38,538 nt of DNA from Bacteroidales bacterium. Lineage in GTDB: Bacteria; Bacteroidota; Bacteroidia; Bacteroidales; JAIPAP01. Shown here piece after piece: positions 5,341-27,736 of this stretch. Position 1 is the first letter of the stretch. Every line of letters begins with the position of its first letter. The notes under the pieces are model-generated. The model did not search any database. It saw nothing but the letters and a program-made list of their open reading frames with translations, and had not been told where the DNA came from. The translations under genes were made by a program, and so were the position numbers. The DNA lies in assembly GCA_021740045.1 (NCBI GenBank), contig JAIPAP010000033.1:1-38538 (forward strand), given 5' to 3'.

Positions 5341-5802
5341 TTATTCCCGGTTAAACAACCTGCTATCAAATTCAAACGCTTCTATCTTAATGATCTTTAC
5401 GTTATGAATAGCTTGATGATTTGGATTGAGCAGGTAATTATACTCATCCTCAACAATAGCAGAAGGAACTTTTAAAACCAGGTATTCAGCATTGCTGATA
5501 AACTCATCACCGAGCTTTTGTGTGGCATTGCCGTGCGGTATCGATTTCCAATTTTCAGGAAGATACGGCCTTTGAAACTCAAATACAGCATCATCAGGGA
5601 ATTCAATGCTTACGAGAGAATAATCAAGGGGAATGATGCCCAAGGGCGTATGTACCACTATTTCTGCTGTACACAATGCCCTCGACTCGCTGGTATAAAT
5701 CATTGGAACACCTTTGCTGTTCCATCTTCCACCGGCTAGTTCCGCTCCTCTGCCGGATAAATCATGGGCATATTTGGATTTACATAAACGAAATACGATC
5801 AT
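5341..5802 (-). CDS. RES-domain toxin of a type II toxin-antitoxin pair
   Basis: The 153-residue protein spans a RES domain from end to end. The residues that give the family its name are visible as R26 (GGRW), E47 (CTAEIVVH) and S114 (LKVPSAI), and the family hallmark YNYLLNPNH follows. Studied RES toxins act in the cytoplasm and deplete NAD+ by phosphorolysis or hydrolysis, and that activity is assumed here. The ATG overlaps the antitoxin stop as ATGA, so the two genes are translationally coupled with the antitoxin first. The pair lies between family-A repeats at 5332 and 6333, which suggests a mobile or selfish cassette. All key residues are present and there is no sign of decay. Confidence 0.92.
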   Translation of the reverse strand: MIVFRLCKSKYAHDLSGRGAELAGGRWNSKGVPMIYTSESRALCTAEIVVHTPLGIIPLDYSLVSIEFPDDAVFEFQRPYLPENWKSIPHGNATQKLGDEFISNAEYLVLKVPSAIVEDEYNYLLNPNHQAIHNVKIIKIEAFEFDSRLFNRE

Positions 5803-6230
5803 GCCAGTATACCATGTTCAATACGCGTAAGTTCATTTTTGATCAAATCGATACCAAAGCTATTGTCCAGTAACTCCTTTGGTTTTATTTTTCCCAGGGC
5901 CATGTTTTCGGTCTTAAGCCAGGTATTGAATTTCTTTTCATCGCCAAATACTTCAACCCCGTATTTGAATAGGAGTATGACCTGCACTATCTTTTCCGAT
6001 TGCATTTTATCGAATTTTCTGTCTTCTTTCTTATACCGCTGAAACGTTCTCTCTGAAATATGCAGTATACGTGGCCAATCGGTAGTTGATAATGAAACCA
6101 TTTTGGATAATTCTCTAAAGATAGAATAAGGAATGCCATTATTCACGAGTTTGATGAGGTGAAATACATTCTTATCATCCAAAGCACTGTAAGTTGCTAC
6201 CGGATCATTCAATACGTTTTTCTGAGCCAT
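5799..6230 (-). CDS. Xre/MbcA/ParS-type antitoxin (DUF2384)
   Basis: The 143-residue protein has the two-part layout of RES antitoxins. An N-terminal helix-turn-helix-like part (about 30-85) includes LSKMVSLSTTDWPRILHISERTFQRYKK. A C-terminal DUF2384 toxin-binding part (90-143) includes VFGDEKKFNTWLKTENMALG and ends in GIDLIKNELTRIEHGILA. It should neutralise the RES toxin and autoregulate the operon by binding its promoter. The gene comes first in the operon and overlaps the toxin by 4 bp. A perfect Bacteroidetes -7 box sits 16 bp upstream of the start. Confidence 0.9.
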   Translation of the reverse strand: MAQKNVLNDPVATYSALDDKNVFHLIKLVNNGIPYSIFRELSKMVSLSTTDWPRILHISERTFQRYKKEDRKFDKMQSEKIVQVILLFKYGVEVFGDEKKFNTWLKTENMALGKIKPKELLDNSFGIDLIKNELTRIEHGILA

Positions 6231-11264: not shown

Positions 11265-12368
11265 TTACTTACATTCACCCAGGATCATTTTCACCGGTAC
11301 CCTGATAAAGCGGGGACGATATATGGTGGCATCTTCAAAAAGATCTTCCAACTTAAAACTGTTTACGTTATAGGATATCAGCAGTTCATTGTTTTTATTG
11401 ATGAATTGCGGATGTGCCAGCGCATTGTATGCAAACAGGTTTTTATCATTTCCCGGAACCGGAGGCTGATAAAGGTTTTGCCTGTTTTCCCATCCTGCAT
11501 AGGGTTTGTTGGAAGTGTAGGTGATAATGGTGTTGTCATCAAATCCACCAATTTGTGATAGATATACAAATTTATCCTTTAGCTTAAATACCGAAAATTG
11601 CTCTGACCCATTAATATCCATCATGGGAATTGCTGTTTCCACATCCTTGCTCCATCCTTTACCGGTATAAAAACCCCAGGGCTCCATGATATTTCCTTTT
11701 GGTGCACGGGCCACGTAGGGTTTTTTATCGGCTCCCAGGCCGTAGATGTAGGTGTATTTTTCAGCCTTATCACATACGGCATGGCCGAAATGTATCTTTC
11801 GGCCTTCGGCAAAAGGGACGTGAATAATTTCCTCGAGTTCTACCTCCGGCAAGGAGAATACAGCCAAATCGGTTCTTACCCAACGAAAGCCCCATCCTCC
11901 TTCATGAGCCTGGTAAAAAGCCGACATAAAAACTTTTAATTTCCCGTCCTCGATAAAACCATCGCCGGGCCAATACCAAAGGGAATCTTCAGAAAATTTC
12001 ACACCTTTTGTGGCATCGGGAGGAATAACCAATGAAGATTCCCAGCCATCTTTAACCTGGTATAGGGTTTCCAGTGAATCTCCATCCTGTATGGCCATAC
12101 TGTTACGGATAAAGATGGGATTGCGCTTTTCTCTTGTGCTGTCCGGATTAACAGTTCCTAAAAAGGTATCCCCGAATATCCAAACGCTGCGATTATCGGG
12201 TAACATGATGGAATAAGTGCCGTCGGCACCGGTCATGCCGCAGCAATCGCGCGAAAAAATCTCGTTAAAGCGATGATCCACGCTCACCTCACAATTACCT
12301 GATTGCCCGTAAATATTGGTAAGTGAGAAAATAAGGATCGCAGTTAGTATAATGCATAATTTCTTCAT
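11265..12368 (-). CDS. Secreted beta-propeller protein, DUF5005/DUF4185-like (second copy)
   Basis: I choose the ATG of MKKLCIILTAILIFSLTNIYG, which gives a clean signal peptide with AAGAAG upstream and a 10-base gap to the GH92 stop. A longer frame would overlap that gene. The 367-residue protein looks like a five-bladed propeller of the DUF5005/DUF4185 type, a family assignment made from memory. Signature segments are LPDNRSVWIFGDTFLG, FIRNSMAIQDGD, WYWPGDGFIEDGKLKVF and YNALAHPQFINKNNELLISY. All recur in the paralogue at 16971-18353. It has no T9SS tail, so it is probably periplasmic. The fold resembles five-bladed glycosidases (GH43 or GH130 style), and operon position suggests a glycan-active or glycan-binding role. 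No activity can be assigned from sequence. Confidence 0.85.
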   Translation of the reverse strand: MKKLCIILTAILIFSLTNIYGQSGNCEVSVDHRFNEIFSRDCCGMTGADGTYSIMLPDNRSVWIFGDTFLGTVNPDSTREKRNPIFIRNSMAIQDGDSLETLYQVKDGWESSLVIPPDATKGVKFSEDSLWYWPGDGFIEDGKLKVFMSAFYQAHEGGWGFRWVRTDLAVFSLPEVELEEIIHVPFAEGRKIHFGHAVCDKAEKYTYIYGLGADKKPYVARAPKGNIMEPWGFYTGKGWSKDVETAIPMMDINGSEQFSVFKLKDKFVYLSQIGGFDDNTIITYTSNKPYAGWENRQNLYQPPVPGNDKNLFAYNALAHPQFINKNNELLISYNVNSFKLEDLFEDATIYRPRFIRVPVKMILGECK

Positions 12369-12378
12369 AATAGCTTCT

Positions 12379-15375
12379 TTAATCATTTACATATTCTTCA
12401 ATTGCTTCTTTCCAAACCAGATAGCCCTCGCCATTCACATGCAAGCCATCAAAAGAATATTTGTCTTTTAATTGATTGTTTTCACCGGCAAACAAGCTGA
12501 AAAGATCAATATAGGTTAGCCCGGATTCCTCGCACAGTTTTTTTAACCCATCATTGATCCTCATCAGGTCTTCATTTTTACGGTTTGTATGAATGGCATC
12601 ATCGGTGGGGAGTTCGCTTTGAATATAAAGCGTTGTTTTCGGGCTTTCGGTTGTGATCCGCTCAATTATCCTGCGGTAATTTTTCAAGATATAATCCACG
12701 CTTTTTCCATTAGCCAGGTCATTGGTACCGATCATCAAAAAGATCTTTTCCGGCCTGCGGTCGGTGATCTCTTCCAGGCGTTCCAAAATACCATCGGTGT
12801 CATCACCGCCAATTCCGCGGTTAATGATGCGATCATTATCGAATAACTCGGCCCACTCGGCGCCATCGGTCAGGCTGTTTCCTAAAAATACGATCTCTTT
12901 TCTCATATCCTCAAGGGTTTCAAAATGGGTTTTACGGTGATAATAATAAGCCTTCATGGCTTTATTCCAAGCTTCCATTTCTTCGGACTGCCGGTCGTAA
13001 TTCATGATCTCATTACGTTCTTCGCGGCTCAGGAGCCGGCTCATCGAAGGGGGTGCATTGTCAAGTCCGCTGCCCCATTCCTTATTGGGTTCGCTGCCCA
13101 TCCATAACGTCAACTTACCACCATCAACCAGTTCCTTATGGTAAAACCAGGGCTTGTTCAGGGGCTTACCATCCAGTTCGGCTTTTTGGATGTATCGGTT
13201 TTTATCGGAATTGTCTTTTACTTCAATTACAAATTCACCACCGGGATAATACTTTTCATCCAGTTGGATGGTGACCTTATCAAAAATGGGGCTACCAATT
13301 TCATATATGGGTTTTACCGAAGTGCCGCCGTCCATTTCAAAAAGACCCATAGAACTCATCACAAACCAGGCGCCCATTTGCCCCTGATCCTCATCGCCGG
13401 GCCAGGCATCCACACCATCATAATAAAAACCATTCATGACCTCACGAACCCATTTCTGCGTGAGCCAGGGAGCGCCGGCATGATTGAAAAGGTAAGCCGC
13501 CTGCATATTGGGTTGGTTTCCATGATTGATGGGTAATAAGCCCACACCCACCAGACCGTTTTTATGCAGATGTTCCGAATTAAAACGGTGCGGGCTGGAT
13601 TTCTCAAAACCCTTATTCAGGCGATTGATGAATTCATCCTCTCCCAGCATTTCCACCAGGCCGCTTTGGTCATGTGGCACAAACCAGGTGTATTGCCAGG
13701 CATTTCCTTCCACAAAACCGGAACCCTTGAAAGTGGAATGGCCGTATTTGGAAAAATCGTCCACCCAACTTCCGTCTTTGTTCCTTCGCCATACGTAGCC
13801 TTCGTCTTCCTTAAATATATTCTTGTAGTTATAAGCTCTTTTCATAAAGGTCTTATAATCCTTTTCCTTGCCTAGCGCTTTGGCTATTTGGGCTACGGTA
13901 TAATCATCATAGGCATATTCCATGGTGTTGGAGGTAGGGCCTTCCTCATCGGGAACATAACCCAGTTCGAGGTAGGGAGCCAGTTGCCGGTTTCCTACAT
14001 GACCTCCGGCAGGGTGGGGCCTTCCGGGTTCTGTTTGATTGTGGAGCATGGCTTTGTAAGCCTTTTCCACATCATAATTGCGAATGCCTTTTTGATAGGC
14101 GCTCACAATCAAAGGTATTTCATGTGAGGCAACCATAATGCTGGAATATTCAATACCTGTTGGTCCTTTGGGTAACCAGCCCCCTTTGTCGTTAATCTCC
14201 AGCAGGGATTTCACCCATTTGTTGGCGATTTCGGGATGTTGCAGAGTCCAAAGCTGATTCAGGTTCCAGAACGTATTCCAAAAGGCATCGCAACCATATA
14301 CCGGGCTGTTGGGATCATCGAGTTGTTGGACTTTTTCATACATATCACGGTATTTGCCATTCACATCACTCCAGATGGTGCGGCTGGAATAGGCGCGGTA
14401 CATATTGGTATAAAACTTTTTCAGGTCCGATTCCGATCCGCCTTCAACCTGTATGGTGCCCAGCAATTCATCCCAGGTATCTTTGTTTTGTTTTACGGCT
14501 TTTTCGAAGTTCCAGTCAAAGGGATCCATTTCGGTTTCAAGGTTCAGGCGGGCCTGCTGTATGTTTACCAGCGAAACCCCTGATTGCATCTGAATTTGCT
14601 CTCCTTCTTCGGTGTCGAATTCAACAAAGGCTCCCACATCATCATCACCAAATATTAAAAAGACTTCATTGGTGTCGCGAATGATCTCATCATGCATCCA
14701 GCCATTGAAGGTTTTGAAGGGTTTATCGAAACGGATGACAAAATAAAGGTTGAATTCATTGTAATTTGCTCTCCGCAAGCTTTGCTGCACTGTATATCCC
14801 TGAATTTCGCGGTCGGTAACCTTGGTGATCTTTGCCTGAAAAATTTCATAATTATATTCCGTTGGGATTTTCAGATCGATCAGAACCCTGGCATTTTCGG
14901 ATTCAGGGAAGGTGTAGCGCTGAAATCCGGCACGGGTGGTGGAGGTCAGCTCGGTATTAATGCCGTAATCTTCCAGAAAAACCGAATAATAACCGGGTTG
15001 CGCAATTTCTTGATCATGGTCGATACGGGAACGGTACCCAAGATCCGGATCATCTTCTTTTCCCGGCTTTATTTTCAACTCACCGGTCGTAGGAACCGTG
15101 AGCAAACCGCCCATGGTCCAGGAGTGCAGGTGGCTGAATCCTGCAATATTATCGATATTATATTCATAACCGGCCTTCCAGCCCTTGCGTTGATTATCGG
15201 GGCTAAGCTTTACCATTCCAAACGGCATACTAACCCCGGGAAATAGCATCCAGCGGGAGTCGGTGGTCCCCATCATGGGATCCACGTAATCGGTGGGTTT
15301 ATATGATTTTTGTCCTATTGAACTTGAAATCCCTATCAAGCCAATGAAAAACAGCAGAAATACTTTTCTTATCAT
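12379..15375 (-). CDS. GH92 alpha-mannosidase fused to an SGNH/GDSL hydrolase domain
   Basis: The 998-residue protein has a signal peptide (MIRKVFLLFFIGLIGISSSIGQ). Residues 28-780 are a complete GH92 enzyme, with VDPMMGTTDSRWMLFPGVSMP at the start and GDEDQGQMGAW at 660-670, where the family has its catalytic acidic residues. GH92 enzymes are calcium-dependent, inverting exo-alpha-mannosidases. From about 800 to 998 comes an SGNH hydrolase. It has block I GNSLTDG with nucleophile S834, a block II glycine (GIGGDD), block III GTNDLA, and block V DGLHVN with D976 and H979. The join contains YYYHRKTHFETLEDMRKEIVFLGNS, which resembles the start of stand-alone SGNH proteins. The fusion suggests removal of an ester group (acetyl or similar) together with mannose release, but that substrate is inferred. 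It lies 12 bp downstream of the sulfatase, in the same operon. Confidence 0.93.
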   Translation of the reverse strand: MIRKVFLLFFIGLIGISSSIGQKSYKPTDYVDPMMGTTDSRWMLFPGVSMPFGMVKLSPDNQRKGWKAGYEYNIDNIAGFSHLHSWTMGGLLTVPTTGELKIKPGKEDDPDLGYRSRIDHDQEIAQPGYYSVFLEDYGINTELTSTTRAGFQRYTFPESENARVLIDLKIPTEYNYEIFQAKITKVTDREIQGYTVQQSLRRANYNEFNLYFVIRFDKPFKTFNGWMHDEIIRDTNEVFLIFGDDDVGAFVEFDTEEGEQIQMQSGVSLVNIQQARLNLETEMDPFDWNFEKAVKQNKDTWDELLGTIQVEGGSESDLKKFYTNMYRAYSSRTIWSDVNGKYRDMYEKVQQLDDPNSPVYGCDAFWNTFWNLNQLWTLQHPEIANKWVKSLLEINDKGGWLPKGPTGIEYSSIMVASHEIPLIVSAYQKGIRNYDVEKAYKAMLHNQTEPGRPHPAGGHVGNRQLAPYLELGYVPDEEGPTSNTMEYAYDDYTVAQIAKALGKEKDYKTFMKRAYNYKNIFKEDEGYVWRRNKDGSWVDDFSKYGHSTFKGSGFVEGNAWQYTWFVPHDQSGLVEMLGEDEFINRLNKGFEKSSPHRFNSEHLHKNGLVGVGLLPINHGNQPNMQAAYLFNHAGAPWLTQKWVREVMNGFYYDGVDAWPGDEDQGQMGAWFVMSSMGLFEMDGGTSVKPIYEIGSPIFDKVTIQLDEKYYPGGEFVIEVKDNSDKNRYIQKAELDGKPLNKPWFYHKELVDGGKLTLWMGSEPNKEWGSGLDNAPPSMSRLLSREERNEIMNYDRQSEEMEAWNKAMKAYYYHRKTHFETLEDMRKEIVFLGNSLTDGAEWAELFDNDRIINRGIGGDDTDGILERLEEITDRRPEKIFLMIGTNDLANGKSVDYILKNYRRIIERITTESPKTTLYIQSELPTDDAIHTNRKNEDLMRINDGLKKLCEESGLTYIDLFSLFAGENNQLKDKYSFDGLHVNGEGYLVWKEAIEEYVND

Positions 15376-15387
15376 CTGAGTTCTATT

Positions 15388-16953
15388 TTAGTTTTCGTTT
15401 TTGTTATCTTGTTTCTCCTCAGGAATTTGATACTTATCTTCCAATGCTTCCATTTTATCTTTCAATTCCCTGATCTTTTCCCGGTACTCCGGTTCACCAT
15501 AAAGGTTATTCAATTCATGCGGGTCTTCCTTCAGGTTATATAATTCCCATGAATTCGGATCGGTTTCAAAATGAATAAGTTTGAAATTTTCCGTTCGTAC
15601 ACCGTGGTGTTTGGGAACACCCCAGCCATTGGCATAAAATCGGTAATAAACCGCATCGCGCCAGCTTTCGAGGTCGGGAACCCTGAAAAGCGGGGTGAGT
15701 GACCTTCCCTGCATGGCACCGGGAATTTCCACTCCGGCCACATCCAAAAAGGTGGGGGCAAAATCGATATTTTGTACCATGGCTTCATTTACCAGGCCTT
15801 TTTTAATTTTTCCGGGATATTTCATGATCAGCGGGGTGCGTAGGGATTCCTCATACATATAGCGCTTATCAAAAATGCCATGCTCGCCCAGGAAAAAGCC
15901 TTGGTCGGAGGTGTAAATAACAAGGGTGTTTTCAGCTAATCCGTGCTTTTCCAGGTATTGATTTATCTTACCTATACTGTTATCCACCGAAATAATGGTT
16001 CGCAGATAATCCTCCATATACCGTTGGAAATTCCAATCGGTTCTTTCTTCCGGGGTGAAATCGGTTGAATAGAATTTTTTGATCTCCTCAACATAGCCTT
16101 CTTCCCATGCTTGCCGTTGTTGGGGAGTCATCCTGTTCAGAACTACCGGGTATGCGTTGCGAGGTATGCGATTCACCTTTTTGATTGGACAGGTATCGCA
16201 AGGCACTTTAAAATCCCATGCTATATCCATATGTTCAGCAATGGTGAGCTTTTGATCTTTCATATGCTCACGCCCTTCATAATCATCGTAAAAGGAAGCC
16301 GGTTTGGGGAATTGCCTTTCATCATACTTATCGAGGTAATTGGTATCGGGCATCCAATTGCGGTGAGGAGCCTTATGGTGAATCATCATCATAAAGGGCT
16401 TATCGCTATTGCGTTTTTCAAGCCATTCCAGTGCAAGATCGGTGGTGATATCGGTTACATAACCTTCATACACCGTATCTTTTCCCATTTTAATAAATTC
16501 GGGGTTGTAATAAAGTCCTTGTCCGGGAAGTACGTTCCAATAATCAAAACCACTGGGCCGGCTTTTCAGATGCCATTTACCAACTATGGCAGTTTCATAG
16601 CCGTTTGCCCTGAGCAATTTCGGGAAGGTGACCTGTGTGGAATCAAATACATCATGGTTATCTTTTATTCCGTTCAAATGGGAATATTTCCCGGTTAACG
16701 CAACAGCCCGGCTTGGTGCGCTAATGGAGTTGGTAACAAATGCATTGGCAAACCTCATGCCCTGATCCGCCATTCTGTCGATATGAGGAGTTTTGTTCAA
16801 ATCGCTCCCGTAACAACTTATGGCTTGTGTGGCATGGTCGTCGGTCATAATGAATACAATATTGGGCCTGTTCTTGGCATTTTCCGGTTGCCGGTTGACG
16901 CATGACATGAGCAGCCCCATAGCAGAGACCAATATGAAATTTTTCAGGTTCAT
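15388..16953 (-). CDS. Family S1 sulfatase lipoprotein, serine-type
   Basis: The 521-residue protein has a lipobox LLMSC with C18. It opens with the metal-binding NIVFIMTDDHATQAISCYG. The formylglycine motif is S-A-P-S-R with S78 as the residue to be converted, so it depends on the radical SAM maturase anSME and not on the aerobic Cys-specific enzyme. No anSME gene is in this window. Further metal and substrate segments are GKWHLK, HHKAPHRNW and YTSDQGFFLGEHG. The N-terminal half resembles S1_11-type N-acetylglucosamine-6-sulfatases, but this subfamily call is from memory and tentative. It probably removes sulfate from the PUL glycan at the membrane or in the periplasm. It is 17 bp from the propeller gene and 12 bp from GH92, which indicates co-transcription. 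Confidence 0.93.
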   Translation of the reverse strand: MNLKNFILVSAMGLLMSCVNRQPENAKNRPNIVFIMTDDHATQAISCYGSDLNKTPHIDRMADQGMRFANAFVTNSISAPSRAVALTGKYSHLNGIKDNHDVFDSTQVTFPKLLRANGYETAIVGKWHLKSRPSGFDYWNVLPGQGLYYNPEFIKMGKDTVYEGYVTDITTDLALEWLEKRNSDKPFMMMIHHKAPHRNWMPDTNYLDKYDERQFPKPASFYDDYEGREHMKDQKLTIAEHMDIAWDFKVPCDTCPIKKVNRIPRNAYPVVLNRMTPQQRQAWEEGYVEEIKKFYSTDFTPEERTDWNFQRYMEDYLRTIISVDNSIGKINQYLEKHGLAENTLVIYTSDQGFFLGEHGIFDKRYMYEESLRTPLIMKYPGKIKKGLVNEAMVQNIDFAPTFLDVAGVEIPGAMQGRSLTPLFRVPDLESWRDAVYYRFYANGWGVPKHHGVRTENFKLIHFETDPNSWELYNLKEDPHELNNLYGEPEYREKIRELKDKMEALEDKYQIPEEKQDNKNEN

Positions 16954-16970: not shown

Positions 16971-18353
16971 TTAGTTAACATAATTTTTCTGTGTGACCAC
17001 TCCTTTTTCGGTAATAAGCTGAATAAGGACAATATTTCCCGTCAGCTTTTTCAGGTCAACTCTGTCGCCATTGGTTACGGTTTTTGATAAATATTTTCTT
17101 CCATCTATCCCGTATATATTCAGCAAGGCTTTCTTATTTAAATTCCTGATCTTAAGGGCACCCTGAATAAATTTGAAGTGCTCTTTGCCATGATCAGGTG
17201 ATCCATCTATTGCGGATGTTCCCGGAAAATCATCGAAAATATGGGCGGTACCGGGTTGGGTGGTATTTACCGCTTCTTCCACATCCAGCCAGTAAAACCG
17301 GCCCCGGTAATTGCGTGTATCATCAAAGATGGAAAAGAAATCATCGGCATTTACATTGAAAGAGATCAATATCTCACCATTATCGGTAAACTGCGGATGG
17401 GCAAAGGCGTTGTAGGTGAAATTTTCGTCAGGAACAACGATATCGGCAAATACATTCTCAATGCCACCGGTGTTTGACGTATTCCAGGGGCCGGTGATCT
17501 TATCCGATTTTTGGATGATCAGTTTGCTATCCAGCCATATTTCATGCTGAACAAGGTAAAATGAACCGTTTTGTTCATGCACTGACAGCGATTCACTGAT
17601 AGGCCGGTCACCAATAGGTACAGCATCTTCACTATGTTCCGACCATTGATCATTACCGGCATAAAATTCCCAATCTCCCATCACGGAGTTTTCAACCCTT
17701 GCCAGGTAGGGGAGGAGCCAGGTCCAGGTATTTTGCGTGGTGTCTTTTTTGCCAAACACATAGGTATAATCTTCCTGTTCCAATACGCAGGTGCCAAATC
17801 GCATGTTAGTATCCAAAACTGCTTCCAGCGGCTTGGTGTGTAGGTGTTCCATGGCCGGATAGCTGAAGGATGCAATATGGGTTCCACCGACTTTAAACTG
17901 GAAATTGGGATTTCCTTCCCCCTTCCAAACCCTGAATGCAAATATTCTCAGGGTATCTTCTTCCAAAATAGCATGTTCCGGCCAGAACCAGGCTTCACCT
18001 TGTTCGGGAATAAAGGAAGTGGGATTTTCCAGTGTTCCCCCGTAATAGGTGGTTAATTCATCATTATCTTCAATGATCACGGAATTCCTGATCATGGTGG
18101 AGGCGCCGTTTTTGATATTGAATTCTCCCTCCATTTCACCAATAAAAGTATCGCCAAACAGCCACAGGGTTTTATCACCGGGCAAGGGAAGCGATATGGT
18201 CACATCGGCGGCACACCAGCCGTCGTCCACTTTAGTGAATTTATTAAAGCGTTCCTGTGCAGGCCTGATCACATCCTGCCCCTTAAGATATGACGGAAAT
18301 AAGGTCAATCCGGCCAGGATAAATAAGATTGATATGTTTTTTAGTTTTTGCAT
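16971..18353 (-). CDS. Secreted beta-propeller protein, DUF5005/DUF4185-like, with T9SS sorting tail
   Basis: The 460-residue protein has a signal peptide (MQKLKNISILFILAGLTLFPSYLKGQ). Its propeller region (about 30-365) is paralogous to the 11265-12368 product. Shared blocks are PGDKTLWLFGDTFIG, MIRNSVIIEDND, AWFWPEHAILEEDTLRIF and YNAFAHPQFTDNGEILISFN. The last 70 residues (ALLNIYGIDGRKYLSKTVTN to TEKGVVTQKNYVN) look like a degenerate T9SS type A sorting domain. It should therefore be placed at the cell surface or released. Its position between the transporter and the sulfatase implies a role in glycan processing or binding. The twin without a tail suggests one propeller outside and one inside. 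Catalysis is plausible but unproven. Confidence 0.85.
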   Translation of the reverse strand: MQKLKNISILFILAGLTLFPSYLKGQDVIRPAQERFNKFTKVDDGWCAADVTISLPLPGDKTLWLFGDTFIGEMEGEFNIKNGASTMIRNSVIIEDNDELTTYYGGTLENPTSFIPEQGEAWFWPEHAILEEDTLRIFAFRVWKGEGNPNFQFKVGGTHIASFSYPAMEHLHTKPLEAVLDTNMRFGTCVLEQEDYTYVFGKKDTTQNTWTWLLPYLARVENSVMGDWEFYAGNDQWSEHSEDAVPIGDRPISESLSVHEQNGSFYLVQHEIWLDSKLIIQKSDKITGPWNTSNTGGIENVFADIVVPDENFTYNAFAHPQFTDNGEILISFNVNADDFFSIFDDTRNYRGRFYWLDVEEAVNTTQPGTAHIFDDFPGTSAIDGSPDHGKEHFKFIQGALKIRNLNKKALLNIYGIDGRKYLSKTVTNGDRVDLKKLTGNIVLIQLITEKGVVTQKNYVN

Positions 18354-18362
18354 ATTATTGGT

Positions 18363-19529
18363 TTACGCCGCTTTGGCTTTTGATTGTTTTACGGCCAGCA
18401 ATGTGGCATAACCCACATAGAGAATACAGGCAACCAATACAAAAATGCTGGCGGTTACTCCGAAATGTTGACTCAGTAAACCCATAATTGGTGGAATTAC
18501 TGCACCACCACTTACGGCCAAAATGATCAGGCCCGAAAGCTCATTGGCGTATTTGGGGGTGTGTTCCACAATGATGGCAAAGAAGATGGGGAATATATTG
18601 GCAAATCCCAATCCGGCAATAAATATCATGACAAATGCTACGGCAGAAGTAGGTGCCAGGATGATTCCCGCCAATCCCGCAAGGGTAATAATGCTGCTTA
18701 CCACAAGGAAGGATTCCGGTTTGATAATACGAAGCAGAAAAGTTCCGGAAATCCGCCCTGCCATTAATGAGGCAAAATATACGCTAATGCCCAGGGCAGC
18801 CGAATCAATATCAATGGCAAAACGATCGCGCAGGAAATTGGTGATGTTGCTGTTCATCGAAACATCAAAACCCACTATAAGGAAAATGCCAAAGACCATT
18901 GCCAGGATAAAAGGATTCTTTAACAATCGAAAGGCACTTTTAAAAGTAGCCGGTTCTTTTTCGGGCTTGCGTTCTTCTACATGCACCGATCTCAACCAAA
19001 ATACAACCAGGAGTGATAAAGCTGTATAAATGGGGAATATCAATTTCCAGTCGCCAAAATAGCTGGCAACAAAAGCAGTAATGGCCGGCCCTAGCATAGA
19101 AGCTATTGCTTTTACAAATTGTGACAAACTTAAATTAGCTGCTTTACTTCCTTCTTTTGAAATATCGATCAATAAAGGATTGGCCGAAACCTGTAAAATG
19201 GTGTTCCCAATTCCCAGGATCATAAAACCGATAATAGCGGTAATGTAGGAATAATACACAAATGGGATAATGGTTCCAACCCCGGTAAGCAACATACCCA
19301 GGTTTACCGTATACTTTTTGCCTTTGCGATCCTGAAAGATGCCTGTTGGGATAGCAATAAGGGCAAACCACAGGAATACCATCATGGGTAAAAGTTGTGC
19401 CACACTATCGGTTAGCTGAAAATCCTTTTGGATGTAACCGGTAGCTACTCCTACCAGGTCAACAAACCCCATCACGTAAAATGACATGAAAACGGGGATA
19501 CTGATCTTTAGTGCTGTTTTTTTGTTCAT
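18363..19529 (-). CDS. MFS sugar transporter of the FucP/glucose-galactose type
   Basis: The 388-residue inner-membrane protein has 12 predicted hydrophobic segments. The first begins KISIPVFMSFYVMGFVDLVGVATGYIQ, and the middle loop is SVHVEERKPEKEPATFKSAF. The loop after segment 2 (GIFQDRKGKKY) is the MFS signature. It resembles the Bacteroidetes sugar:cation symporters that import free monosaccharides. Beside ROK kinase, mannose isomerase and GH92, mannose is the likely cargo. It lies 9 bp upstream of the propeller gene. A 72-bp gap before it contains a hairpin and a possible internal promoter. Confidence 0.92.
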   Translation of the reverse strand: MNKKTALKISIPVFMSFYVMGFVDLVGVATGYIQKDFQLTDSVAQLLPMMVFLWFALIAIPTGIFQDRKGKKYTVNLGMLLTGVGTIIPFVYYSYITAIIGFMILGIGNTILQVSANPLLIDISKEGSKAANLSLSQFVKAIASMLGPAITAFVASYFGDWKLIFPIYTALSLLVVFWLRSVHVEERKPEKEPATFKSAFRLLKNPFILAMVFGIFLIVGFDVSMNSNITNFLRDRFAIDIDSAALGISVYFASLMAGRISGTFLLRIIKPESFLVVSSIITLAGLAGIILAPTSAVAFVMIFIAGLGFANIFPIFFAIIVEHTPKYANELSGLIILAVSGGAVIPPIMGLLSQHFGVTASIFVLVACILYVGYATLLAVKQSKAKAA

Positions 19530-19601: not shown

Positions 19602-21359
19602 TTATATCCTTACATACGCTTTTATGGTTGCGCATTCTTCTCCTTCCGATTTTCCAAATGGCCTGATGGTATATTTTCCTACCGATGCCGGAATAATAAA
19701 GGTTTCGGCATAATGGACCACAAAAGGAATAAAAGCATCATCAGGGCTCTCTACCACGGCTTCTTTTCCGGCCACCAGGTTGAGCACATTGAGGTTTCCA
19801 TTGGTATGATGTTCCACCTTTTTGGTGAACCAGTGGCGCCGGGTTTCAATAAATTCACGTTCATGAAGGCCGGTACGTTCTTCCCGCCAGCCATCTCTGC
19901 TACCTATCTCTTCAATACGATTTATGAGGTTTTTGCGCGTCCAATTTGTAGTGCGATCCCATTGGATTACATTTTCCCCATGTTTGATATTGATAGGCCG
20001 GGGTTTTCCATCCATGCCAAGGCGCCCCCAATCCCATAGCTTAAAGGTGAAGATATAAGGAGTGGAACTGATCTCCAGCACCATGCTGTTTTTACCTGAG
20101 CAATGAATAGTTCCGGCGGGGATGAGGAAATGATCATGCTTTTTGGCAGGCCATTTTTCCACATATTCTTCATCGTTAAATGCGGTGCCGTCCCTTTCCG
20201 ATTGTTTCAAATCAGCGATCATTTCTTCAGAATTGACGCCTTCCTTAAGGCCAAGGTAAACTGAAGCATCTTCTCCGGCATCCATCAGATAATAGCTTTC
20301 ATCCTGTGTGTAATGCATTCCAAAGGTTTCCTGTATGTAATCGGTGGTGGGGTGGACTTGTAAGCTCAGATTACCGCCATCCATAGTATCCAAAAAGTCG
20401 AAACGGATAGGGAATTCCGCTCCAAATCGTCCGTGCACTGCTTCACCCAATAATTCATTGGGTTGATAAAACACCACGTTTAGAGAGGGGATTTCCACAA
20501 TGGTATCACCAAATTCCAGTAGCAGGCTGTTTTCTTCGGGAATGCAATTAATGCTCCATGCATAATTGGGGTGGTTGCGATCCAGGCCGCAAATTTCTTT
20601 CATCCATTGTCCGCCCCAAGGGCCGGCATCAAAATACGGTACAACGCTAAACGGTTGCCGGGCGGCCTGCTTTATGCCTTGCCTCATAGCTTCGCCTGTA
20701 ACCATCTTGGGGGCAGAGCGATCGTTAGTGTCGAGCACGTAATCCCAACGATCGATCTGTTGTCGCTTAAAGCGGTCGCATACCCGCCAGTCGACAAAAT
20801 AGCCCCGTTTGTATTTTGATTCCGGTGATTCGGTTTTATTATTGATACCCAAATTGTTAACCAGCTTATCGCGCATGCGAAGCTGTATTTCCCAGCGGGC
20901 CATGTCTGCATAAACCAGCAAATCGGGTTCGGGTGCTATGAGTGTGGCTCCGGGTCCAAAAATTAAGATCAATCCATTTTCTGTTTCCGCTATGTCATTT
21001 TGAATTTGTTCCAGGCTTTGCTGATCAAAGAAATCCTGCATTTTTAAGCGGGTCATATACCCAAAGATACGGTCATCGGTTACATCCTGATGGGTTAGTT
21101 GCCTGATCTTCTCTTCGGGATGCATGGCCTGTTTGGATTCAATCACCTGGTCGGGTTTGAGCCCCTTCACCAGTTTATCCAGTACTTCCTCATATAAAAT
21201 GCCCTGATAGGTTTCTACAACAATGATCTTAACGGTTTTATCTTCCTTTTCAAGGACTGTCTTCAACTCCCGGTTGGTTGCCTCCCATCCGGTCAAACAG
21301 TCCTTTTCCCTTCCTTCAATTCTTACAAGCGGTCGCTTTTCAAACTTCGTCTTCTCCAT
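19602..21359 (-). CDS. manA: Class I mannose-6-phosphate isomerase, long form with N-terminal domain
   Basis: I start this 585-residue protein at MEKTKFEKRPLV, preceded by GGAG at good spacing. A longer frame would run deeper into the ROK gene. The C-terminal 350 residues contain the zinc-binding set of type I phosphomannose isomerases: Q334 and H336 (LSLQVHP), E354 (DESYYLMD) and H419 (PAGTIHCSG). The enzyme interconverts mannose-6-phosphate and fructose-6-phosphate in the cytoplasm. The first 230 residues are an extra domain with IIVVETYQGILYEEVLDKL, a glycine-rich FGPGATLIAP, and a conserved stretch VDWRVCDRFKRQQIDRWDYV. I recall the same arrangement in other Bacteroidetes, but its function is not known to me. 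The start overlaps the ROK kinase gene by 20 bp, so the two are tightly coupled. Confidence 0.93.
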   Translation of the reverse strand: MEKTKFEKRPLVRIEGREKDCLTGWEATNRELKTVLEKEDKTVKIIVVETYQGILYEEVLDKLVKGLKPDQVIESKQAMHPEEKIRQLTHQDVTDDRIFGYMTRLKMQDFFDQQSLEQIQNDIAETENGLILIFGPGATLIAPEPDLLVYADMARWEIQLRMRDKLVNNLGINNKTESPESKYKRGYFVDWRVCDRFKRQQIDRWDYVLDTNDRSAPKMVTGEAMRQGIKQAARQPFSVVPYFDAGPWGGQWMKEICGLDRNHPNYAWSINCIPEENSLLLEFGDTIVEIPSLNVVFYQPNELLGEAVHGRFGAEFPIRFDFLDTMDGGNLSLQVHPTTDYIQETFGMHYTQDESYYLMDAGEDASVYLGLKEGVNSEEMIADLKQSERDGTAFNDEEYVEKWPAKKHDHFLIPAGTIHCSGKNSMVLEISSTPYIFTFKLWDWGRLGMDGKPRPINIKHGENVIQWDRTTNWTRKNLINRIEEIGSRDGWREERTGLHEREFIETRRHWFTKKVEHHTNGNLNVLNLVAGKEAVVESPDDAFIPFVVHYAETFIIPASVGKYTIRPFGKSEGEECATIKAYVRI

Positions 21360-22311
21360 TCTGATTCTCCAATGTTGTTGCCAGATAAGCCACACCCAGG
21401 AGGGCGGCATTATTCATGTTTTCTGCTTGTACGATTTTTACTTCTCCCCAGCCTATCCAGGCCTGTTCTTTAACTTTTTGTTCGATGTAGGGGATGATCA
21501 CACCGGCACTGCCCATTACTCCGCCATTCAATATCACAATTTCCGGATCATAGGCATGGATCATATTAATAACTGTTGAGGCCCAGATATCGAGGCTGTA
21601 ATTACGGATATTAAGCGCCAGTTTATCTCCTTGTTCGGCCAATTGAAACACTGATTGAAAATCAATCCTTTCGGCTTTTGAGAGTTCGCTCTCCGGCCAT
21701 GCGGGATCATCTTTTGCCTTTTTCTCCAGGCTCCAGGTTGATGCTTCCGCTTCGGCACAACCAATGTTTCCGCAGTTGCAGGGCGTTCCGTTCACATTCA
21801 CAATGAAATGTCCGCCAAGAATACCGGCCTGAAAATGCTTTCCCCTTACTAACTCACCCTGCATTACTGCCGATGTGCCAATACCGGTTCCCAGTGTAAG
21901 GCCAACTACATCGTCTTTTCCACGTCCTGCGCCATATTTCCATTCACCTGCAAGGGCTGCACGGGCATCATTTTCCAAAAACAGCGGGATGTCCCATTTA
22001 TCTTTTGCCCAATTAACAAAATCAAAATTCAGGGCATCGGAAAATTTATCATTAATGGAAATAAGTTTCATCTTTTGGGTATCGACCAGTCCCGGAGTGG
22101 CAAATCCCACTCCGGACAGGTCATTTGAAGTTTTGCCGGCTTCATTCAACAACTTATCAATCTCATCTTCCATAACCGGCAAGCGGGGTAATAATCCTTT
22201 ATCCGATTGAGCATCGATGGATGTCCAGGCCAAGACCTCTCCCTTTTCCACTATACCCAGTTTTATCTTGGTTCCACCCAGGTCAATTGCTATCGCTGCA
22301 TTATCTTTCAT
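21340..22311 (-). CDS. ROK-family sugar kinase
   Basis: The 323-residue cytoplasmic protein has the ROK pattern: ATP-binding AIDLGGTKIKLG at the N terminus, catalytic ENDARAALAGEW, GLTLGTGIGTS, and the zinc-binding cluster GTPCNCGNIGCAE. ROK kinases phosphorylate hexoses such as glucose, mannose, fructose and N-acetylated sugars. Beside a mannose-6-phosphate isomerase and GH92 it is most likely a mannokinase, but the sequence alone does not fix the sugar. It begins 2 bp after the SusD stop and overlaps the isomerase gene by 20 bp. Confidence 0.94.
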   Translation of the reverse strand: MKDNAAIAIDLGGTKIKLGIVEKGEVLAWTSIDAQSDKGLLPRLPVMEDEIDKLLNEAGKTSNDLSGVGFATPGLVDTQKMKLISINDKFSDALNFDFVNWAKDKWDIPLFLENDARAALAGEWKYGAGRGKDDVVGLTLGTGIGTSAVMQGELVRGKHFQAGILGGHFIVNVNGTPCNCGNIGCAEAEASTWSLEKKAKDDPAWPESELSKAERIDFQSVFQLAEQGDKLALNIRNYSLDIWASTVINMIHAYDPEIVILNGGVMGSAGVIIPYIEQKVKEQAWIGWGEVKIVQAENMNNAALLGVAYLATTLENQNGEDEV

Positions 22312-22313
22312 TA

Positions 22314-23759
22314 TTAATAACCTTCATTTTGTGTAAGATTGGGATTCAAATCGCGCTCCCGTTGCGGAATGGGGAAACGGTAGTGAAAGCTTTGCGGATT
22401 CGCATTATTTCCTTTAGCGGCATTAACCCGCTCGATCAAGCGGTTGGTTCGTTTAAGGTCGAACCAGCGGTTGCCTTCATTAATGGTTTCCAGGCGTTTT
22501 TCCTTCCATACTGCAGCACGGAATTCCTCATAATTCAAACCCGAAAGATCGGGCAGAACATCTTCATTGCCGTTACGGGCACGCTCCCTTACCTGATTCA
22601 CGGCATCGTATGCAGCCTGATTGGGACCATTGTTGATCTCATTTAAGGCCTCTGCATAGATCAACAGTACTTCGGGGTAACGCATCAATTTGAAATTAGC
22701 TCCTGACTGTCCGGTTTCACTTGCTTCATAAGCATCCCTGTCCCAATATTTCCAAAGGTGAGGTTCGAATTCATGCTGCCAATAGGAATCAAAAAAGGTC
22801 ACTTCCTTACGGTAATCGCCTTCTTCAAAAGTATTCAGCAGATCTTCGGTGGGCAGTAACATTTCCACGCCTGCCGGGAAAACCGATTGAATAGAGGGTA
22901 AACCGCTGATCACCAATCTTGAATTTTCATTGTTTACGCTGGCGGTAAACTGGACTTCAAAAATAGATTCTTTGCCGTTTTCATTGGATTCTTTAAAGGC
23001 ATCCGCATAATCATCAAACAATTCATAAACACCTGAATTAACAACCGCTTCCGCATGGGTGGCTGCATCATTCCAATTTTCGCGGGTAAGATGCACTTTT
23101 GCCAGCATAGATTTGGCGGCTCCCCAGGTAGCTCTTCCTTTATTGGCTCCCGAATGGCTTTCAGGGAGTTTTTGAGCCGCCTTTTCAAAATCTGCAATAA
23201 TAAGAGCATACACATCTTCAACAGCTGCTCTTTCTTTATATACCTCTTCGTCGCTTAAATCGGGAGAAACCGGTATGGTTACCATGGGTACTCCACCATA
23301 CATGCGAGCCAGGTTGAAATAGAACAGCCCTCTGAGAAAATGAGCTTCTCCAAGAATTTGCTGTTGAAGCGTGGAATCCATTTCAGTATTGGGGATCTTT
23401 TCCAGAACGATATTGGCCCGGCTAATACCTAAATATGATCCCTGCCAGGCTTCTTCTGTATAATTATTAGTAGCTTCCAGGGTATAATGGTCAAATTCAT
23501 GAACATCCGGATCATTCAAATTGGGATTGGCATTGAAATCATCGGAACTGATATCCTGTATATACCAAATATGGCTGTTGTATTGATTCACCTGACCCAA
23601 AACATCGTACACAGCGTTTATGGCATTCAAGGCCGATTCTTCGGTTTGATAAAAATTATCGTAATAGATCCGGTGCGGATCCAGGTCGAGCTTCTCCTTG
23701 CTGCATGAAGAAGCGATTAATAATGATATGGCGATTAAAAAATATGCTGCTTTATTCAT
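22314..23759 (-). CDS. SusD/RagB-family glycan-binding lipoprotein
   Basis: The 481-residue protein has the lipobox ASSC with C19, followed by SKEKLDLDP, typical of SusD proteins. The N-terminal SusD-like part includes YQTEESALNAINAVYDVL, and the helical tetratrico-like core includes EAHFLRGLFYFNLARMYGGVP. The C-terminal RagB region ends YRFPIPQRERDLNPNLTQN, the usual closing motif. It sits on the outer membrane as the lid of the SusC channel and binds the glycan. It starts 11 bp after susC, and the pair is the core marker of a PUL. Confidence 0.96.
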   Translation of the reverse strand: MNKAAYFLIAISLLIASSCSKEKLDLDPHRIYYDNFYQTEESALNAINAVYDVLGQVNQYNSHIWYIQDISSDDFNANPNLNDPDVHEFDHYTLEATNNYTEEAWQGSYLGISRANIVLEKIPNTEMDSTLQQQILGEAHFLRGLFYFNLARMYGGVPMVTIPVSPDLSDEEVYKERAAVEDVYALIIADFEKAAQKLPESHSGANKGRATWGAAKSMLAKVHLTRENWNDAATHAEAVVNSGVYELFDDYADAFKESNENGKESIFEVQFTASVNNENSRLVISGLPSIQSVFPAGVEMLLPTEDLLNTFEEGDYRKEVTFFDSYWQHEFEPHLWKYWDRDAYEASETGQSGANFKLMRYPEVLLIYAEALNEINNGPNQAAYDAVNQVRERARNGNEDVLPDLSGLNYEEFRAAVWKEKRLETINEGNRWFDLKRTNRLIERVNAAKGNNANPQSFHYRFPIPQRERDLNPNLTQNEGY

Positions 23760-23770
23760 AATCTTAAACT

Positions 23771-26700
23771 TTAAATGTTAATGGATAATCCGAGAATATA
23801 GCTTTTCACACTGGGATACGCGCCGAAATCATAACCTACCCGTGTATTATCCTGGCCAAAGTGACTAACTTCCGGGTCAAAACCGGTGTAATCGGTAAAC
23901 GTAAGCAAGTTCTTGGCAGTGATATAAATACGGGCTCCTTTGATCTTTGCCGATTTCAACAAATTTTGGGGAAGGTCATAGGATAAAGAAATTGATTTCA
24001 GGCGGATATAGGAGCCATCTTCCAGGTAGCGGTCCGACATATGCAGGTAATCTGCATTGCGATTGGCCCTTGGATATTTATCCGAGGGATTTTCAGGTGT
24101 CCACCGGTCTAGCATATCAATGGATGCATTGGTAAGACCATTGCCCGATTCCAGTTCAAAGCGGTTGGCGTTAAGGATTTCATTTCCCTGCACTCCTTGT
24201 ACAAAAACATCAAGTGAGAAATTTTTGTAAGAGAAGGAGTTGGTTAATCCCCAGCGGAAATCAGGTAAGGCATGGCCGATGATCTTACGGTCTTCTTCAT
24301 TAAGCTTACCGTCGTTATTCTGGTCGATGTATTTGAAATCACCGGGCTGAGCACCATATGCAGTAGCTTGTTCAGCTTCATCCGACTGCCAGATACCATC
24401 GGCTTCCCAGCCATAAAAGCTTCCCATTTCTTCACCTTCACGTATTACCGACCAGTTTCCGATCTTAAGTTTATACTGGTCGTTATTAATGAAAAGCTCT
24501 TTTCCGTTTAGATCAAGCACCTGATTTCGGTTGGTGGAGATGTTCATATCGGTTGACCATGCGAATTCCCCAACAAAATTATCGGAATGCACGGCAAACT
24601 CGAAACCTTCATTTTCAAGTTCACCTATATTCTTCAGGTAGGAATTAAAACCGGTTGACCATGGCAGATCGGCGTAGTAAAGTAAATCAAACGTCTTCTT
24701 ATAGTAATAATCAGTAGTAATGGTCAACCGGTTATTAATGAATCCCATATCAAATCCCACATCCAGCTGCCGGGTTGTTTCCCATTTCAGATTATTATTG
24801 CCGGGTTGATCCGGAGCAAATCCGCTGGCCGGGCTCTCTCCCAAGTAATAAAGTATAGATGCAATGGTACGGATATACCTAAAATTCGGTATGCGTTCGT
24901 TACCTGAAATACCATAACTCGCACGTAATTTCAGGTTTGAAAAAATATCCAGGTCTTTAATAAAATCTTCTTCGGACATGCGCCAGGCTATAGCTGCTGA
25001 TGGGAAAAATCCAAAGCGATTGTTCTTGCCAAATTTTGAAGAGCCATCCAAACGACCGGTAAGCGTTAGCAGGTATTTATTCTTGAGGCTATAGTTGGCC
25101 CTTGAAAAATAGGATATGAGAGATGACTTATTAAAGCCCGTATAGATCTTCGGCATATTTTCGGCATTCTCAATTCCGTAATAGGAGAGGACATCGTTTG
25201 GAAAGCCCGTAGCTACGTCAATAAATGCACGATTATCCCTTTCCTGATATGTAAAGCCGAGCAAAGCGTTCAGTGAATGCTCCTCATTAAACTGCCTGTT
25301 ATAATTAAGCGTATTCTCGAAATTATACATTTCGTTATTATTGGTGGCATAGCGGGCCTGACCATCGTTCCATGAGCCTTCATAAATGGTACGGGGAGTA
25401 TACATATCCACGGTTTGCGATAATATATCAATCCCAAAACTGGATTTCAGTTTCAAGCCCTCTATGATGGAGTATTCGGCATACACATCACCCAACAGTC
25501 GTTTTACGTGGTTAAGGGCTTCCACTTGGCGGGTTACCGCAACCGGATTATTAAGCCAGGCATCAGCAACCGGATCGGTAAGTGTATAATTTCCATTTTC
25601 ATCTTTAATATCCAATACCGGGCTAATGATCATTGATGTGTTCACCACGCCCGGGAAAAACCCACCGGGTGTGTCGCTGGAAACGGTTTCGGAGTTACTT
25701 TGGCTTATGGTGAGGTGATTCCCCACTTTTAATTTGTCGCTAACATCTTTTTCAAGATTGGCCCTGAAAGAATAGCGTTCAAAATCGGAGCCATGGATAA
25801 TCCCTTTGCGATCATAATAATTCCCCGAAAGCGCATATTTTGTGCTTTCATTTCCACCGGAAACCGAAAGCTCATAATTTTCCATAGGAGCTTGCCTGTA
25901 AATCTCATTTTGCCAGTCGGTACCTGCACCCAGTGATTCCGGATTGGGATAGGCCGGGGTGTAATTCGGGTTGGCATTGATGCCAGCTTCGTCATATAAG
26001 CGGGCGTATTGTTCGGCATTCATCACATCGATGCTGTTGGCTTTCTCCTGAAAACCACTGTAGGCTGAAAATGTGATCTTGTCGTCACCTGATTTACCGC
26101 TTTTGGTAGTGATGAGCACAACACCATTTGCACCGCGGGCTCCGTAAATAGAAGTTGCGGAAGCATCTTTAAGAACTTCAATGGATTCAATATCGTTTGG
26201 GTTGAGCGTACTAAGCCCGTTTTGATTGGGACTATTGGTCCATGATATAAGATCGGTATTTCCGGTTACGGGCACACCATCAATAACATAAAGCGGTTCA
26301 TTACCCGCCATAATCGAATTTCCGCCCCTGATCCTGATGGAAGTAGCTCCACCGGGTTGGGCCGAAGTTTGGGTAACACGCACGCCGGCAGATTGGCCCT
26401 GCAGCTTCTGATCCATGGAATTCACCGGGATCTTTTCCAGTTTTTCGGTTTTAATGGAGGTTACCGAACCGGTGAGATCGCTTTTCTTAACCGCTCCATA
26501 ACCAACCACTACATATTCTTCCAAACTGATTTGATCGCTCTCCAATACCGCATTAATGGTGGCTTTGGTTCCGATTTGTTTGTCAATGGTTTTCATACCA
26601 ACAAATTGAAAGCGTAACACCTTAGCTTCAGGTGAAACGTCCAGAGAATACTCTCCATCGGCATCGGTAATGGTACCGTTACTGGTTCCTTTTACATACA

Positions 26701-26833
26701 CCGTTACACCAGGTAATGGAGAACCGTTTTCTTTTTGGGTAACCTTTCCTGTAATGGTCTTTTGTTGGGCCAGTACCCCAAGGCTCAACAGGGAAAAGAC
26801 CATTAGAAAAAGAATGCTATGATAATTTCTCAT
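23771..26833 (-). CDS. SusC/RagA-family TonB-dependent outer-membrane transporter
   Basis: I start at MRNYHSILFLMVFSLLSLGVLAQ, which gives a proper signal peptide and a 1020-residue protein. An in-frame start 35 codons upstream would add a charged, non-signal leader across the likely operator. After the signal comes the carboxypeptidase-D regulatory-like domain (KTITGKVTQKENGSPLPGVT), then the TonB box region EEYVVVGYGAVKKSDLTGSV. The plug follows with GQSAGVRVTQ and PLYVIDGVPV, and then a long beta barrel ending YILGLSINI. It imports oligosaccharides across the outer membrane using TonB energy, in complex with SusD. The gene opens the PUL operon after the GntR gene. Confidence 0.96.
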   Translation of the reverse strand: MRNYHSILFLMVFSLLSLGVLAQQKTITGKVTQKENGSPLPGVTVYVKGTSNGTITDADGEYSLDVSPEAKVLRFQFVGMKTIDKQIGTKATINAVLESDQISLEEYVVVGYGAVKKSDLTGSVTSIKTEKLEKIPVNSMDQKLQGQSAGVRVTQTSAQPGGATSIRIRGGNSIMAGNEPLYVIDGVPVTGNTDLISWTNSPNQNGLSTLNPNDIESIEVLKDASATSIYGARGANGVVLITTKSGKSGDDKITFSAYSGFQEKANSIDVMNAEQYARLYDEAGINANPNYTPAYPNPESLGAGTDWQNEIYRQAPMENYELSVSGGNESTKYALSGNYYDRKGIIHGSDFERYSFRANLEKDVSDKLKVGNHLTISQSNSETVSSDTPGGFFPGVVNTSMIISPVLDIKDENGNYTLTDPVADAWLNNPVAVTRQVEALNHVKRLLGDVYAEYSIIEGLKLKSSFGIDILSQTVDMYTPRTIYEGSWNDGQARYATNNNEMYNFENTLNYNRQFNEEHSLNALLGFTYQERDNRAFIDVATGFPNDVLSYYGIENAENMPKIYTGFNKSSLISYFSRANYSLKNKYLLTLTGRLDGSSKFGKNNRFGFFPSAAIAWRMSEEDFIKDLDIFSNLKLRASYGISGNERIPNFRYIRTIASILYYLGESPASGFAPDQPGNNNLKWETTRQLDVGFDMGFINNRLTITTDYYYKKTFDLLYYADLPWSTGFNSYLKNIGELENEGFEFAVHSDNFVGEFAWSTDMNISTNRNQVLDLNGKELFINNDQYKLKIGNWSVIREGEEMGSFYGWEADGIWQSDEAEQATAYGAQPGDFKYIDQNNDGKLNEEDRKIIGHALPDFRWGLTNSFSYKNFSLDVFVQGVQGNEILNANRFELESGNGLTNASIDMLDRWTPENPSDKYPRANRNADYLHMSDRYLEDGSYIRLKSISLSYDLPQNLLKSAKIKGARIYITAKNLLTFTDYTGFDPEVSHFGQDNTRVGYDFGAYPSVKSYILGLSINI

Positions 26834-26875
26834 GATCAAAGGTTTATAGTTTGTGTTTTGTTTTTTAGTATTGTC

Positions 26876-26897
26876 TGAACATTTATACATAAAATGT
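26876..26897 (-). promoter_or_regulatory. Candidate operator upstream of susC
   Basis: ACATTT-N7-AAATGT (26879-26897) is an inverted repeat in the 108-bp gap between the GntR gene and susC. On the minus strand it continues into TTCAGACAATACTAA. The same sequence with small changes lies upstream of the gene at 27853-28701. It is a likely site for the neighbouring GntR regulator. Confidence 0.5.
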
Positions 26898-26941
26898 TTT
26901 TGTATCATCTCTTTCTTCAGCTTAGCATAATGATTCATAAA

Positions 26942-27679
26942 TTACTGGATACTTCTTTCGCTTTCGATGGTATAAATGAAGCTATCGGCGCGGTAGTACC
27001 CCAGGTTGTATTCTATGGGACGATTGCCGGGATCGAAAACGTATCGCTTTCTTTTCAGAATGGGTTTTTCTGCGTTTACTTTGAGTTTTTCGGCCAGGAA
27101 TTCATCGGCACTTAATGCACTAATTTCTTCTCTTGATAACTTGGCAACAACAGCATGATCCTGTTCAAGGATCTCATATAAGGGACGGGTAAAGTCTTCT
27201 TGTTCGGTAAGTCCGATACGGGGGTGGAAGTATGAGATAAAGAACACAAAGGGATGGCTTTTATTACCCCGCAGACGTTGCATTCTGAGTATAGGTTCAG
27301 CCTTTTTTAAGTTGAAAAACTCTATAAGTGCTTTATCAGGCTCTACCCAGTCCAGGGTGAGTTCATAGTTCTTAATTGCTATTCCTTTTGCTTTCATCTC
27401 CTGGGTGAAACTAAGCCAATTGGAAAGCCTGGTATTGACGCTTTTATCAACTACCTTGGTTCCTACCCCGTTCTTTCTTACCAGTAAACCTTCATACACA
27501 AGACGGTTAATGGCCTGCCTGACCGTATTGCGTGAAATGCCCAGCTGCTTGGCCATATCAACCTCATTGGGAAGGAATTTCCCCTCTTTGTATTCAGGCA
27601 ATTCAATTAGTGTGCGAAGCATTTGTTCTACTTGCGCATGAAGCGGTACTGAGCTTTTATGATCGATTTCCAGTCGCAT
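26942..27679 (-). CDS. GntR-family transcriptional regulator with UTRA domain (HutC type)
   Basis: I use the ATG at MRLEIDHKSSVPLHAQV, giving 245 residues. Two more codons in frame would need a TTG start. The N-terminal winged helix (about 10-75) has FLPNEVDMAKQLGISRNTVRQAINRLVYEGLL. The UTRA ligand-binding domain (about 90-240) has EPILRMQRLRGN, FVFFISYFHP and RPIEYNLGYYRADSFIYTI. UTRA regulators usually bind a sugar phosphate or similar metabolite and release DNA. Here the effector could be mannose-6-phosphate or another product of the pathway. It lies directly upstream of susC, in the same direction. A GntR regulator is less usual for a PUL than SusR, HTCS or ECF/anti-sigma systems. Confidence 0.94.
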   Translation of the reverse strand: MRLEIDHKSSVPLHAQVEQMLRTLIELPEYKEGKFLPNEVDMAKQLGISRNTVRQAINRLVYEGLLVRKNGVGTKVVDKSVNTRLSNWLSFTQEMKAKGIAIKNYELTLDWVEPDKALIEFFNLKKAEPILRMQRLRGNKSHPFVFFISYFHPRIGLTEQEDFTRPLYEILEQDHAVVAKLSREEISALSADEFLAEKLKVNAEKPILKRKRYVFDPGNRPIEYNLGYYRADSFIYTIESERSIQ

Positions 27680-27736
27680 ATGCAAATTGTAAAAGTAATG
27701 ATAACTGCATAAACATTAAAGTCTATTCCTGAACTT

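Follow-up and report, generated by a model that had tools for sequence, protein, structure and literature searches.

A conserved fusion of a GH92 alpha-mannosidase-like enzyme and an SGNH esterase-like domain in a predicted mannose-type polysaccharide utilisation locus of Bacteroidota

The closest described counterparts of the protein reported here are the GH92 enzymes BT3965, BT3130, BT2199 and BT3990 of Bacteroides thetaiotaomicron and the sialate O-acetylesterase PvSAE of Phocaeicola vulgatus (6njc, 7pzg). In BT3965, the mannose in the -1 subsite is held at O4 (and O3) by Asp344 and Trp383, conserved contacts whose counterparts in BT3130 are Asp353 and Trp390 (PMC5930347). PvSAE forms a dimer through its N-terminal helix, and Gln31 of one subunit touches the catalytic Asp199 of its partner (PMC9063846). 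Esterase and GH92 functions are also paired in the xanthan-oligosaccharide PUL of Bacteroides intestinalis, in which a CE domain (PL-CE) and a GH92 serve one substrate with acetylated alpha-mannose (PMC10881899); there, however, the two are separate proteins. NnGH92 and the long GH92s (~990 aa) of the order studied here resemble our protein in being multi-domain, but their extra domains are CBM or CHB_HEX/F5-8C-like, with no esterase (PMC10167667). We found no published GH92-SGNH (or GH92-GDSL) enzyme in the open-licence literature.

We analysed a 38,538-nucleotide stretch of a Bacteroidales genome (hereafter, the window), in which a GH92-SGNH fusion gene occupies 12379..15375 on the minus strand, the strand of all features of the gene and its locus given below. 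ORF reading and Pfam matches delimit a single frame of 998 codons plus a stop, with an ATG start and no internal stops. A putative signal peptide without a lipobox Cys, MIRKVFLLFFIGLIGISSSIG, was read directly from the sequence at about residues 1–21 (15313..15375). It is followed by the GH92 N-terminal beta-sandwich domain (residues 30–268; 14572..15288; PF17678, 5e-71, profile positions 1–236 of 236) and the GH92 catalytic (alpha/alpha)6 domain (residues 274–761; 13093..14556; PF07971, 3.7e-151, profile positions 1–464 of 464). Both are of full profile length and score above their curated cut-offs (239.7 bits against 34.5, and 504.7 against 24.6), as does the match to TIGR01180 (523.6 against 249.55), placing the protein in GH92. 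The GH92 tail and a helical linker (residues 762–800; 12976..13092, from the orthologue alignment) lead into a conserved helix, WNKAMKAYYYHRKTHFE (residues 801–822; 12910..12975), and then into the SGNH esterase domain (residues 823–998; 12382..12909; PF13472), where the Lipase_GDSL_2 profile matches residues 830–985 (4e-27, profile positions 1–176 of 178). A chance ORF is ruled out, since both halves match full-length profiles. In an AlphaFold model of the fusion (pLDDT 82.5, pTM 0.79), residues 23–780 resembled GH92 mannosidases (Z 46.1 to BT2199) and residues 812–998 the Phocaeicola sialate esterase (Z 25.5). The frame, the profiles and the fold matches thus bear out the preliminary description of a complete GH92 followed in one frame by a complete SGNH domain.

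The fusion is not confined to this genome. A search of 149 relatives returned three further full-length fusions with 69–79% identity, and a scan of genome contigs returned ~22 with 61–79% identity in the best segment, two of which (L033 and L042) lie on contigs already returned by the first search. In a sample of the phylum, 4 of 395 genomes carried the fusion, adding three beyond the genome of the window. With no known double counting, about 26 other assemblies have full-length orthologues with 61–79% identity. Those from the contig scan belong to Bacteroidales, Lentimicrobiaceae, Salinivirgaceae, Flavobacteriaceae, Cyclobacteriaceae, Flammeovirgaceae and Cytophagales, and the fusion-bearing bacteria come from sediment, lake and marine habitats. 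Contigs L044 and L052 stop within the SGNH part, and in one MAG (L076) the GH92 and SGNH halves are in different frames. Because full-length orthologues occur in many independent assemblies, a sequencing or assembly error, or a missed stop, is ruled out as the source of the joint. A missed stop had been suggested as a concern for 12900–13050 (residues 775–825); the independent orthologues read through this region in the same frame, with a constant linker length. The proposal of a real gene fusion therefore holds, whereas the idea of a lone oddity gives way to that of a conserved family. Other long GH92s in this order have CHB_HEX/F5-8C-like or PA14 tails and no esterase tails.

In a tree of GH92 domains, the 24 fused rows fell inside a single starred clade of 38 Bacteroidota rows, with three changes needed to explain their distribution. 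This pattern is consistent with one old fusion followed by loss in Saprospiria, which have the same PUL with an unfused GH92, L039 carrying an unfused copy in tandem; the tree would also be compatible with two or three independent gains of the fusion. No SGNH gene was found within the fetched flanks of the unfused GH92s of Saprospiria or Planctomycetota. In two genomes (L149 and L150), the SGNH (65–68% identity) is a separate protein with a signal-like N-terminus of its own, encoded in the same PUL type but with GH92 absent. In the SGNH tree, these proteins nest among fused rows, with modest or weak support, and so look like later fissions; the same weakly supported nesting led us to reject the idea that the two genes were originally separate. 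Unfused GH92s of the same clade from Planctomycetota/Verrucomicrobiota (L056:9104-12235 and L067:179-4018) have an N-terminal PL4-domain-III-like CBM.

We next consider the GH92 half, which shares its fold with the four B. thetaiotaomicron enzymes (Z 37–46, ~30% identity), together with the HGNQ/EP motif and the catalytic Glu/Asp pair. No solved GH92 is more than ~31% identical to it. Alignment and the published assignments (PMC5930347) mapped the general acid to E556 (13708-13710) and the general base to D663 (13387-13389), which align with Glu531 and Asp633 of BT3965, and this pair is retained almost without exception across 147 aligned GH92s. By contrast, the fusion lacks the O4-binding Asp/Trp pair of these enzymes. 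N367 (14275..14277) stands at the position of the O3/O4-binding Asp and G404 (14164..14166) at that of the O4-binding Trp, again as mapped by alignment to characterised GH92s (PMC5930347). The Asp/Trp pair marks the canonical group in the 147-sequence alignment; in the group containing the fusion, with further orthologues included, the first site is N, I, G, L or M and the second is mostly G, with D in one branch. This is a departure inside GH92 and not an exclusion from it, as family membership is by sequence. The alpha-1,2 His584-Glu585 motif of the +1 subsite is likewise missing, the aligned residues being H604 and K605, which vary among orthologues.

With the O4-holding Asp and Trp lost in its clade, the GH92 half may accept O4-modified or otherwise unusual mannose; as the His-Glu motif for alpha-1,2 linkages is absent too, its substrate may be something other than standard mannan. 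One tentative alternative is that the GH92 half cuts a modified or unusual manno-type residue (e.g. 4-O-acyl, 4-O-sulfo or 4-O-glycosyl mannose; perhaps in endo mode) because its -1 pocket has an open O4 wall, with the esterase acting afterwards on the released or exposed residue. The retention of acid and base beside the changes from Asp344/353 to N (or, in other clade members, to I, G, L or M) and from Trp383/390 to G would fit this proposal, as would the preservation of D and W in the compared GH92 structures and in nearly all other GH92s of the set. However, the pocket positions derive from sequence alignment, and the same D/W change is found in unfused clade members without an esterase. 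A related possibility, which we regard as similarly speculative, is that the opened O4 pocket is a new GH92 specificity for mannose with an O4 substituent (an acyl group, a sulfate or another sugar), and that a linker of fixed length couples it to a dedicated esterase for mannose O-acyl groups, evolved from sialate O-acetylesterases.

The SGNH half contains blocks I, II, III and V in the form of S834, G857, N885, D976 and H979, all invariant in 23 of 23 fused sequences. The orthologue alignment places the catalytic residues S834 (12874-12876), D976 (12448-12450) and H979 (12439-12441) where they had previously been located, and they are intact. PvSAE is the nearest solved relative (~42% identity, Z 25.5), sharing the triad, the oxyanion Gly/Asn and the dimer helix; most of its dimer salt-bridge positions (Arg71, Glu58, Glu61) are also kept. 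Unlike PvSAE, the fusion is joined to a GH92 and lies in a different gene context, and its active site is altered: Gln31 is replaced by His (H813), the Ser74-equivalent by Gly856, the Ile102-equivalent by Thr884 and Thr197 by Ser974, with Asp859 as an additional change. These differences are fixed or nearly fixed in the fused clade. On this comparison, the SGNH half appears to be a descendant of sialate-O-acetylesterase-type enzymes with clade-specific active-site changes.

Kinship with PvSAE raises the possibility that the SGNH half is a 9-O-acetyl sialate esterase and that the substrate is a sialylated N-glycan. In this order, relatives of the SGNH half are neighbours or fusion partners of GH20, BNR sialidase, SASA and NanM genes, so the wider SGNH family serves O-acetylated sialoglycans. 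However, this PUL lacks sialidase, GH20 and Nan genes, and none recur in the orthologue loci; this context and the changes at H813, G856, D859, T884 and S974 argue against PvSAE-type activity on O-acetyl sialic acid, and we consider a sialate substrate highly unlikely. Further fusions of this SGNH type are SGNH-GH20 (L152:3248-5848), BNR sialidase-SGNH (L153:5744-8029) and SGNH-SASA-SGNH (L151:3430-6138).

The preliminary description had also noted that the N-terminal motif of stand-alone SGNH proteins is retained at the joint. This is so because the junction helix is the counterpart of the PvSAE dimerisation and active-site-rim helix, as identified by alignment (PMC9063846), and five of its residues (W803, N804, Y810, Y811 and F818) are invariant in 23 of 23 fused sequences. 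By analogy with PvSAE, this suggests that the fusion may dimerise via the junction helix. Across 20 aligned orthologues, linker residues 783–800 are gap-free and conservation of helix 801–822 (70%) is close to that of the GH92 (71%). An invariant linker length and a conserved helix over several orders suggest a fixed geometry of the two sites. This geometry speaks against another arrangement, in which the two domains act on separate parts of one glycan (the esterase, for instance, on a side group carried by a different sugar) and have been joined just for co-secretion and stoichiometry. That arrangement would be in keeping with the stand-alone SGNHs found in the same PUL without GH92 (L149 and L150) and with the unfused GH92 in the same PUL of Saprospiria, which mean that neither activity strictly needs the other; in view of the linker, we judge it unlikely.

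The surrounding genes constitute a PUL, with a SusC/SusD pair, co-directional enzymes and a regulator. In order, and assigned by profile match unless stated, these are a GntR/UTRA regulator (26942..27685), SusC (23771..26938), SusD (22314..23759), a ROK-family sugar kinase (21340..22311), a 602-aa protein with a type I phosphomannose-isomerase-like domain at residues 251–480 (19602..21410; 1qwr, 1.4e-11), a GluP/FucP/NagP-like MFS sugar transporter (18363..19529), a 460-aa DUF4185 protein (16971..18353), a 521-aa sulfatase (SGSH_C; 15388..16953), the GH92-SGNH fusion and a 373-aa DUF5005/DUF4185-type secreted protein (11265..12386; PDB 4hbs, 8e-12), a GH183-like candidate that overlaps the stop of the fusion. 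The 602-aa PMI-like protein keeps the QxHP and later His motifs, and its presence makes a manno-configured hexose the likely product and a mannose-type PUL the likely designation of the locus. The first 250 residues of this protein (19602-21410) have no Pfam or NCBIfam match. Over 24 fused loci, the partners were DUF5005/4185 proteins (23), SusC/D (22), a PMI-like protein (21), a ROK-type kinase (18, of a second type, c5), GntR (15), MFS (14), a CE1-like esterase (8), a 775-aa protein (7), a XylE-like porter (5) and a sulfatase (3). Sulfate is thus not a constant feature of fused loci. A xanthan PUL is ruled out, as PL8, GH88, GH3 and GH5 genes were not recognised in this PUL.

The DUF4185/5005 proteins bear on another candidate substrate, an actinobacterial lipoarabinomannan-like glycan, of which these proteins would cut the furanose part while GH92-SGNH handles acylated mannose. 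The DUF4185 family comprises endo-D-arabinanases that act on LAM (PMC10115798), and DUF4185/5005 proteins are present in 23 of the 24 fused loci. However, the DUF4185 matches are at or under the curated cut-off, and GH172 was not identified among the recurrent genes of these loci; we regard this substrate as the least probable of those considered, slightly behind a sialylated one.

The 775-aa secreted protein (c10; L051:7653-9965, L149:6032-8356 and six more sister loci) recurs beside GH92-SGNH and, in loci that lack GH92, beside the stand-alone SGNH. It had no Pfam, NCBIfam or PDB match, and its low-confidence predicted model (pLDDT 54.7) has a beta-rich N-terminal half and a helical C-terminal half; it is possibly an unnamed glycoside hydrolase. 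Elsewhere in the window are a RES/Xre (ParT/ParS-type) toxin-antitoxin pair scoring over NCBIfam cut-offs (5341-6230), a serpin gene with the PUL on one side and housekeeping genes on the other (28980-30305) and, near the contig end, a single frame that matches both the large and small subunits of 3-isopropylmalate dehydratase/homoaconitase (36798-38453).

The reading we favour, with modest confidence, is that the fusion is a secreted, probably periplasmic, bifunctional de-esterifying exo-mannosidase of a mannose-type PUL, as predicted from its sequence and gene context. A mannose-containing oligosaccharide would be imported by SusCD, the C-terminal SGNH would take an O-acyl group, most likely acetyl, off this oligosaccharide, and the N-terminal GH92, working by the Ca-dependent, inverting mechanism usual in its family, would free the manno-configured sugar at the terminus. 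The constant-length helical linker, including the esterase's dimer/rim helix, would keep the two active sites at a set distance. The freed sugar would then pass through the MFS transporter, be phosphorylated by the ROK kinase and be isomerised by the PMI-like protein. The compartment, acyl type, sugar, linkage, order of steps and linker rigidity in this scheme are what we infer. Counting against a bifunctional exo-mannosidase are the loss of the O4-binding Asp/Trp, with which ordinary terminal mannose may not be a substrate, and the occurrence of each half by itself in the same PUL type. An ester group near terminal mannose, as the preliminary description had predicted, is plausible given the sugar kinase, the PMI-like protein and, in 8 of 24 loci, a second, CE1-like esterase; plain acetylated mannan as the substrate is not supported, the GH92 half missing both the O4 pair and the alpha-1,2 motif, and is one option among others.

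The GH92-SGNH architecture is a conserved, new combination of known enzyme families; more surprising is the change in the GH92 pocket. This altered sugar pocket marks a large GH92 clade, whose members would wrongly be annotated as plain alpha-mannosidases. The fusion suggests that an esterified manno-glycan occurs in anoxic sediments, lakes and seas, and indicates which enzyme pair would open it.
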